From positions 1 through 26,074 of IMG/VR virus record IMGVR_UViG_3300031885_000098: a DNA stretch of 26,074 nt; one strand, given 5' to 3'. The notes under the pieces are model-generated. The model had not been told where the DNA came from. It worked only from the letters and a program-made list of their open reading frames with translations, and did no database searches. The translations under genes and the position numbers were made by a program. The first letter of the stretch is position 1. Each line of letters opens with the position of its first letter. The stretch comes from a virus. This document shows positions 17,006 to 19,086 of the stretch, piece after piece.

Positions 17006-17275
17006 TTATTTCTCCTTTATCAAAAAAATGTTTCCACAACTTATTATGCTTTCCGCATGCAAAAATGCATCGGTAGTTTTCTTTATATCTCTCTCGCTTA
17101 TTGTCCTCTCGTCACGGCGAAGCGTGCCGTAGCCGGGCTCGTCACGGCGAAGCGTGCCGTAGCCGGGCGGGTTATACTTCGCCGGGTGAATCTCGCTCAT
17201 CTTGAACTGCTTGACCTGCGGCTCAACCTTGATTTCCGATTTACGATTTCTCATTTTTGATTTTTGATTTCTCAT
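17006..17275 (-). pseudogene. ParB-N-like gene fragment broken by a tandem palindromic element
   Basis: The frame begins with repeat-derived residues (MRNQKSKMRNRKSEIKVEP), then 'VKQFKMSEIHPAKYNPP', which matches the start of phage ParB/sulfiredoxin-like domains ('pls.ihPapYNPR'). Exactly there the sequence changes to two copies of PGYGTLRRDE, encoded by a 30-bp tandem repeat, and then to an unrelated tail without the expected 'lk.Si.e.G..ePiiwN' continuation. The domain is therefore missing most of its body. The stop overlaps the ribosome binding site of the next gene. I call it a pseudogene; a short recast peptide is possible. Confidence 0.6.
17108..17167. repeat. Tandem 30-bp palindromic element, CTCGTCA family, copies 2 and 3
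   Basis: Two identical 30-bp units (17108-17137 and 17138-17167) each containing ACGGC...GCCGT arms. Being 30 bp, they keep the frame and insert 2 x 10 residues in the ParB-N-like fragment. Related single elements are at 11989-12020 and 25575-25607. Confidence 0.85.
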
Positions 17276-18114: not shown

Positions 18115-19023
18115 TCATTCATCACTTCGTTTTATCGCCCTCATAATAACCATAGCCACCTGTACCACTATCGCATTGCCTAAACATTTAAGTCTGTCCA
18201 CCCTATTGGGAATCCCATCAGCCACTCGACCCACGTCGGGTTCAACTGCCCACTGACTACATTCGGCAGACAATCTGTTTTGTTGCCATAATTGCCTCGC
18301 TGACTTTTGCCCTTCCAGTCCCTGCTTTTTAGGGTAGGCAGTAATCTTGCCACCGCCGTCGCCAAATCGTCCCCGCCCGATTCTTTCCTGTTTGCTCTTG
18401 CAAAGTCCGGCCCCGATGGAGTTGCCTTCGGTGTCGGCCACATTTGAACGGCGTTTGTCAGCTTCATCGCATGTCTTGTTTTGCCCGTAAATTCCTGACC
18501 TTTCATTACACCGCATGCATCGGTCGCTACTATTGTGGGCCACAATCCAGATCCTGTCTCTCTTATGTGGCGCACCAACGGCACAAGCCGGTATAATTTC
18601 CCACCAACAGTCATACCCGATTTCGGCCAGTCTCGATAAAATTCCGCCGAAGACGTTTCCTTCTTGAAGGGCAAACAGGTTTGGAACGTTCTCCAGGATT
18701 GCGTAGCGTGGTCGAACTGCCCTGATGGTATCGAGGGTAACAGGCCAGAGCCATCTATCGTCAGCAGTTCCACGTTTCTTCCCTGAAATACTCGCAGGCT
18801 GGCAAGGCACTCCAGCCGTAAGTAAGTCAATCTGTTCAAAATGTCTAATTCGTTCGTTGTTGATGTCATTTATTATTTCCACATCAGGCCAGTGCTTTTT
18901 CAAAACCTTACAGCAAAACTCTTCACTCTCGCAAAAGGCGACCGGTTCATAATTTTCCTGCCATATATTTTGGGCGGCCAAAACGAACCCGCCTATCCCT
19001 GTGAATAAATCAAGATGTCTCAT
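18115..19023 (-). CDS. DNA cytosine-5 methyltransferase
   Basis: 302 residues from the ATG at 19021-19023. C5-MTase motifs are clear: motif I 'HLDLFTGIGGF' at the start, motif IV 'GVPCQPAS' with catalytic Cys74, motif VI 'LENVPN' (about 110-115), motif VIII 'HKRDRIWIVA' and a motif X-like end 'RLKCLGNAIVVQVAMVI'. The region between VIII and X, where the target-recognition domain should be, is short and Gly/Arg-rich. Phage enzymes like this protect DNA from host restriction. The start is chosen because an eight-codon leader frame with a strong ribosome binding site overlaps it as ATGA; the frame is open 21 codons further upstream. The second half is overlapped by another open frame (18180-18869). 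Confidence 0.88.
   Translation of the reverse strand: MRHLDLFTGIGGFVLAAQNIWQENYEPVAFCESEEFCCKVLKKHWPDVEIINDINNERIRHFEQIDLLTAGVPCQPASISGKKRGTADDRWLWPVTLDTIRAVRPRYAILENVPNLFALQEGNVFGGILSRLAEIGYDCWWEIIPACAVGAPHKRDRIWIVAHNSSDRCMRCNERSGIYGQNKTCDEADKRRSNVADTEGNSIGAGLCKSKQERIGRGRFGDGGGKITAYPKKQGLEGQKSARQLWQQNRLSAECSQWAVEPDVGRVADGIPNRVDRLKCLGNAIVVQVAMVIMRAIKRSDE
18180..18869 (-). CDS. Overlapping +1-frame protein resembling phage methyltransferase C-terminal region
   Basis: A 229-codon frame lying entirely inside the methyltransferase gene, one base offset. Its second half is not random: 'GSGLWPTIVATDACGV', 'QMWPTPKATPSG', 'LLPTLKSRDWKGKSQRGNYG', 'CLPNVVSGQLNPTWVEWLMG' and 'FPIGWTDL' follow a pattern I know from conserved phage proteins and C-terminal parts of phage C5-methyltransferases (the 'LNPxWVEWLMGFPxGWT' block resembles motif IX). 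The same bases in the other frame give 'VEPDVGRVADGIPNRVDRL', also a known methyltransferase C-terminal pattern. The start ATG has only a weak GGAA site. It may be translated separately, joined by frameshifting, or be a relic. Confidence 0.5.
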   Translation of the reverse strand: MTSTTNELDILNRLTYLRLECLASLRVFQGRNVELLTIDGSGLLPSIPSGQFDHATQSWRTFQTCLPFKKETSSAEFYRDWPKSGMTVGGKLYRLVPLVRHIRETGSGLWPTIVATDACGVMKGQEFTGKTRHAMKLTNAVQMWPTPKATPSGPDFARANRKESGGDDLATAVARLLPTLKSRDWKGKSQRGNYGNKTDCLPNVVSGQLNPTWVEWLMGFPIGWTDLNV

Positions 19024-19046
19024 TCTGAAATAGCCAATTCTCGCAT
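19020..19046 (-). promoter_or_regulatory. Eight-codon leader frame coupled to the methyltransferase start
   Basis: GAGGTGAAGA followed by ATG opens MRELAISE and stops at TGA (19020-19022), which overlaps the methyltransferase ATG as ATGA. The ribosome binding site of the pair belongs to the leader; the methyltransferase start has none of its own, so it is probably translated by coupling. Confidence 0.5.
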
Positions 19047-19086
19047 TCTTCACCTCAATCAATTTTCTTAAATCGCCTGTCCGCAC

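Follow-up and report, generated by a model that had tools for sequence, protein, structure and literature searches.

Why should a viral gene for a DNA methyltransferase stay open in two reading frames over the same bases, and are both frames used? This question is raised by a locus of IMG/VR virus record IMGVR_UViG_3300031885_000098, of which positions 1 to 26,074 were analysed (hereafter the window, 26,074 nucleotides in full). On the minus strand of the window, an open reading frame (ORF) related to C5-cytosine DNA methyltransferases (ORF1, alpha, 18115-19086) wholly contains another one (ORF2, beta, 18180-18869), which is read one base later, in the +1 frame. From the comparison of homologous sequences, we consider it very probable that the locus encodes one 5-methylcytosine (m5C) DNA methyltransferase made as two polypeptides, of the M.EcoHK31I kind, with beta as an internally started specificity subunit. 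A preliminary description, drawn from the letters of the window alone, had reported both translations, and they exist on this strand as described; it had assigned the overlap to the second half of the gene, which is right as to the overlap itself and too modest as to its extent, since it takes up ~70% of ORF1 (about 200 codons), from motif III/IV to motif IX.

Two predicted proteins within one methyltransferase gene

The two translations were searched separately and, as the preliminary description had supposed, both frames correspond to known protein families. ORF1 matches PF00145 (E 1e-45), PHROG 363 (E 2.5e-69) and TIGR00675, and ORF2 matches PHROG 1008, a family labelled DNA methyltransferase (E 5.8e-35, residues 8-228); Pfam and NCBIfam searches gave no family for beta, and a sequence search of the PDB with beta or the beta profile as query gave no match. 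The elements of the locus are the following:

18115..19086, minus strand: alpha, predicted catalytic subunit of a C5-cytosine DNA methyltransferase, 323 amino acids counted from a GTG (PF00145, E 1e-45)
18985..19014, minus strand: alpha motif I (DLFTGIGGF), S-adenosylmethionine (AdoMet) binding, outside the overlap; conserved columns of alignment A5
18180..18869, minus strand: beta, nested +1-frame ORF, 229 amino acids (PHROG 1008, E 5.8e-35); selection tests on homologues
18775..18819, minus strand: alpha motif IV with the catalytic Cys (GVPCQPASISG), P94, C95 and Q96 invariant in alignment A5; these bases also encode the N-terminal part of beta
18538..18573, minus strand: alpha motif VIII (APHKRDRIWIVA), the same bases giving beta VRHIRETGSGLWPT in the +1 frame
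18190..18531, minus strand: alpha spacer replacing the target recognition domain (TRD) and motif IX, delimited by the predicted local distance difference test (pLDDT), the substitution pattern and the stop-free alpha frame
18249..18545, minus strand: predicted TRD of beta, with the repeats LWPTIVATD, MWPTPKATPSGPDFARANRKESGGDDLATAV and LLPTLKSRDWKG; substitution ratio, and alignment with the TRD of a single-frame methyltransferase
18195..18245, minus strand: beta motif IX (LNPTWVEWLMGFPIGWT), the same bases giving EPDVGRVADGIPNRVDRL in the alpha frame
18118..18189, minus strand: alpha motif X (KCLGNAIVVQVAMVIMRAI), starting just before the beta stop, the remainder outside the overlap

Alpha, whose true start is probably the first ATG, at 19023, carries the C5-methyltransferase motifs I, IV (PCQ, with the catalytic Cys), VI (ENV), VIII and X. 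Its matches to TIGR00675 and PF00145 stop at about residue 200, the latter covering only positions 1-169 of 324, and no TRD with motif IX was found in the same chain; single-chain methyltransferases align with alpha over motifs I-VIII and X only. In the AlphaFold model (three rows from annotated phage records were left out of the alignment used for structure prediction), motifs I-VIII and X are ordered, motif X forming a helix with a pLDDT of 79-96, and residues 201-298, including the alpha-frame reading of the motif IX region, are disordered (pLDDT about 37-48). A Foldseek comparison of this model with M.HhaI gave E 2e-14 and a root-mean-square deviation of 1.7 over 167 columns. Thus alpha, as read from its sequence and predicted structure, is a chain without TRD and motif IX. 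Beta has WPTP-type repeats and, at its C-terminus, LNPTWVEWLMGFPIGWTDL; in alignments with single-frame relatives, the repeats together with LNPTWVEWLMGFPIGW fall on the TRD and motif IX, and the motif IX residues P211, E215 and G219 are invariant in 98 sequences.

Selection in the two frames

With ORF2 as query, tblastn gave matches in 348 phage records and, in IMG/VR, in at least 598 stretches, and in the first loci collected (85/85) the ORF2 frame is exactly +1 of the ORF1 homologue, on the same bases. For a sample independent of ORF2, an alignment of the alpha N-terminus was searched against viral contigs and GTDB genomes, the ORF2 profile applied to it having been built from the first locus set. 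In this sample, alpha is open through motif X in 135/147 (92%) of the non-truncated loci, and beta is matched in the +1 frame in 134 of the 135 loci with complete alpha; from beta-synonymous shuffling, the alpha frame would be expected to be open over the TRD in ~5%. The outcomes that would have spoken against a second coding frame, namely homologues for one frame only or an ORF2 broken in relatives, did not appear: homologues were found for each of the two frames, and relatives from different phyla have ORF2 open.

When the codons of alpha were shuffled synonymously, the ORF2-family score fell from 160 to 46 bits on average (independent loci), and all 123 of 123 loci scored above all 40 of their own shuffles, which bears out the earlier statement that the overlap is not due to chance. 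The distribution of stop codons in the +1 frame delimits the selected region. Before column 72 there is no depletion (558 observed vs 434 expected); in the successive segments inside beta the observed and expected numbers are 2/111, 8/33, 2/564 (motifs V-VIII), 20/168 and 28/87, and after column 277, at the end of beta, they are normal again (204/162). Layouts without nesting display no stop depletion. Among alpha-synonymous changes, a beta stop arises from none of 886 over motifs V-VIII vs 132 of 1319 in the upstream part. The amino-acid replacements that the changes in V-VIII cause in beta are more conservative than expected. Codon choice follows the same lines: in the alpha stretch 'RVADGIPNRV', which shares its bases with beta motif IX, the three Val columns have GTG in 391/440 cases vs 168/574 elsewhere, each GTG in these columns encoding Trp in beta. 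As for the alpha frame, beta-synonymous shuffles of loci chosen with complete alpha lead to an expectation of ~4 alpha-frame stops per locus in the variable region, and 0 were observed.

In pairs of related loci, the ratio of substitutions at position 3 to those at position 1 of the alpha frame is 4.4 upstream of beta, 1.65 over motifs V-VIII, 0.13-0.26 in the TRD or variable region and 0.50 at motif IX, and it is back to 3.6 at motif X, past the end of beta. The third position of an alpha codon is the second of a beta codon, and its first position falls on the wobble base of beta; with this geometry, the ratios indicate that motifs V-VIII are selected in both frames, and the variable region and motif IX mainly as beta protein. 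In the variable region, the slowest site is the third position of the alpha codons, which shows that it is the beta frame that encodes the TRD and motif IX. Several locus pairs share 90-97% identity across their first ~500 bases and differ beyond this point, in the recognition part; an exchange of TRDs would be expected to have this effect. Shuffles, substitution ratios and stop depletion in the +1 frame together give strong support to dual coding, one of the explanations offered in the preliminary description: in these alignments, both frames are under protein-level selection, and the amino acids of the alpha spacer are almost unconstrained, yet the spacer is kept free of stops.

Frame layouts, start of beta and rival explanations

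The same protein blocks are distributed differently among relatives. In the single-frame, actinophage-like relatives L276 and L280, motifs I-VIII, LPTP repeats, LNAAFVEWLMGLPDGW and LGNGVVPQ are found in one frame; the L276 protein can be aligned to alpha in I-VIII (5e-34) and in X (2e-4), and its TRD and motif IX part is exactly the one matched by beta (3e-5). In L003, L251, L252 and L255, the gene is split into two overlapping ones, frame 0 being broken and the +1 frame continuing with TRD, IX and X. In L247, and in this locus alone, an LPTP-type TRD was read directly in the +1 frame. L247, L278, L281, L286, L288 and L298 apparently share a layout with the TRD in +1 and motifs IX and X back in frame 0; for L278 and L281, a +1 frame reduced to the TRD is inferred. 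With the window, where TRD and IX are in beta and X in alpha, the same blocks therefore occur in four frame layouts. Three loci (L160, L189 and L213) considered as in-frame alpha-beta fusions were rejected, as they look like one-base indels and the +1 relation persists beyond them.

In the window, the ATG of beta (18869) comes directly after an in-frame TAA. Among homologues, the start of beta falls around alpha column 59-76 and its end immediately ahead of motif X, and an internal start codon follows the last +1 stop in 199/199 loci. A Shine-Dalgarno-like match of at least 4 bases precedes the internal start in 81% of cases vs 43% of shuffles, and GGAGG or AGGAG at columns 62-63 occurs 25-27 times vs 4 expected, a ~6-fold enrichment. 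We propose a model in which ribosomes would start beta internally on the same mRNA, and beta would fold on alpha to contribute the recognition half. The alpha segment between motifs VIII and X would act as a disordered bridge, needed only to remain open so that motif X is translated, and the enzyme would serve the phage as an orphan methylase, probably one that counters host restriction.

Programmed +1 frameshifting near motif VIII, also put forward in the preliminary description, would pass ribosomes from the alpha into the beta frame and yield a fused I-VIII-TRD-IX protein; such an enzyme would be co-linear, and the frame relation is indeed always +1. However, the beta frame is selected from column 72, some 100 codons before a shift could be of use and well ahead of any alpha/beta junction, and the fusion would be without motif X, which is located in alpha. 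Internal initiation is favoured because it explains the enriched start codons and Shine-Dalgarno-like motifs, whereas a frameshift near VIII leaves the upstream selection on beta unexplained; frameshifting, for which no systematic search for a shift site was made, thus appears neither needed nor supported, and we regard it as improbable. Conserved motifs do give rise to out-of-frame conservation, as the 46 bits still reached by shuffled sequences illustrate, and the second frame might in this way be a shadow, an untranslated by-product of conserved methyltransferase residues and codon bias. It is extremely unlikely that this accounts for a frame in which every tested locus outscores its shuffles, in which the selection on TRD and IX tracks +1 rather than frame 0, and which in the split actinophage loci carries on with TRD, IX and X where frame 0 is broken; moreover, stop depletion is absent from layouts without nesting.

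The finding of TRD, IX and X in different frames among relatives also speaks for an evolutionary frame switch, another of the earlier proposals, and such switching is visible across the family. As a sole explanation, with one of the frames a relic of a former C-terminus, it is already contradicted by the proportion of loci with both frames open (92% vs ~5% expected), and we hold it to be very unlikely. That beta is instead an independent regulator or counter-defence protein would be in keeping with the about 100 residues ahead of its TRD that match no known domain, and with the absence of a confident fold when it is modelled alone. It is nevertheless quite unlikely to be so, as beta can be aligned with single-frame methyltransferases in its TRD and motif IX, alpha is without both, and the beta of the split actinophage loci carries motif X as well.

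Several points weigh against a two-polypeptide enzyme with an internally started beta. The nearest relatives of the window share only ~57% DNA identity with it over the catalytic region, and for this reason selection is measured on homologues instead of close kin. The beta ATG of the window is preceded by no Shine-Dalgarno match of 4 bases. Beta alone was modelled by AlphaFold with low confidence (pLDDT 57, predicted template modelling score 0.21), and the L276-beta match is weak and a single comparison. Finally, the activity and specificity of the enzyme, the fold of beta and its contact with alpha are features that we infer.

Occurrence, significance and comparison with known systems

The sampled loci come from phages and from Pseudomonadota, Bacillota, Bacteroidota, Chloroflexota, Synergistota and others, with two matches on plasmids; in E. 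coli genomes, the close relatives of the Salmonella phage copy number only four, which does not suffice for population tests. Both ORFs are annotated in some records (e.g. Paenibacillus phage Tadhana) and alpha alone in others. Some loci have peculiarities of their own. One stretch (L134:132-2100) has a tandem of two alpha/beta methyltransferase pairs, the second alpha without its N-terminus, and another (L027:1651-3110) has a LAGLIDADG-like insertion (AAYAAGLIDGEGCISI) within the dual-coded region, both frames being open. Five copies of the nested locus with identical match coordinates and scores (L171-L175, OX638333.1) lie on one chromosome, a Roseovarius metagenome-assembled genome, and are probably a repeated prophage. 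The copy in the E. coli PCP07014 prophage (L338:3001-3762) is an annotated pseudogene with an internal stop. As for the window itself, this 26-kb virus record includes terminase, portal, head protease, integrase, ParB-like and replication genes, i.e., by gene content, those of a tailed phage or prophage fragment. A short tandem repeat at 17105-17172, inside an ORF on the minus strand (17006-17275), encodes PGYGTLRRDE twice.

In broader terms, it is likely that the locus belongs to a very widespread and ancient family of m5C methyltransferases from phages and bacteria, whose recognition subunit, encoded in another frame within the catalytic gene, sets the specificity and is often missed by gene callers, the TRD, IX and X blocks having moved between frames several times. 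If this is true, one set of bases carries the evolution of both recognition and catalysis, and the two functions are kept apart, in a natural example, by reading frame. Long same-strand overlaps in prokaryotes are disputed; the alpha/beta case is large, conserved across phyla and testable, and its edges in the substitution data are sharp. The finding is also important for annotation: many phage 'orphan DNA methyltransferases' would thus be annotated without their recognition subunit, and therefore the cloning of a recoded alpha alone, or the prediction of specificity from the TRD region of alpha, would fail.

The two-polypeptide architecture is already known from M.EcoHK31I, a bacterial enzyme that has seldom been noticed, and the new aspects appear to be its wide distribution, its age and the location of the TRD in beta. 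M.EcoHK31I, with which M.EaeI is grouped, has the site YGGCCR, and Lee et al. are said to have reported in 1995 that its small chain lies within the gene of the large one, in a different frame. M.AquI and M.EcoHK31I each consist of two polypeptides; in M.EcoHK31I, a predicted TRD accompanies motifs I-VIII and X in the larger chain, and motif IX is all that the smaller one has (PMC3404938). Given this precedent, the earlier remark that no such overlap had been described does not hold; in the open-licence literature, we found no paper on conserved nested methyltransferase subunits in phages. Like M.EcoHK31I as published, the window has I-VIII and X in its large chain and IX in its small one; the nesting of the small chain in another frame, present in the window, is reportedly shared. 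Unlike it, the window has its TRD in beta (the TRD of the large chain in the literature being a prediction and not a defining property), and its enzyme would be an orphan one of a phage, as the window shows no restriction gene. In the case of M.AquI, alpha stops early and beta carries X, whereas alpha of the window runs through to X and beta ends before it; the M.AquI layout, with alpha ending after VIII and beta carrying IX and X, is present in actinophage loci L003, L251 and L252.

The closest report from phages concerns another protein hidden out of frame in a methylase, the HNH endonuclease of the ShiLan domain (PMC11855218). The window resembles it in having a second protein in another frame of the gene; unlike ShiLan, an inserted selfish element, beta is made from the methylase's own recognition region. 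M.BatI, a C5-methyltransferase of a Bacillus prophage, has been described with an unusually short TRD (PMC8936443). It may conceal a nested beta. With M.HhaI and the other single-chain PF00145 C5-methyltransferases, alpha shares the predicted fold of motifs I-VIII and differs from them in that the TRD and motif IX are found outside the alpha chain.
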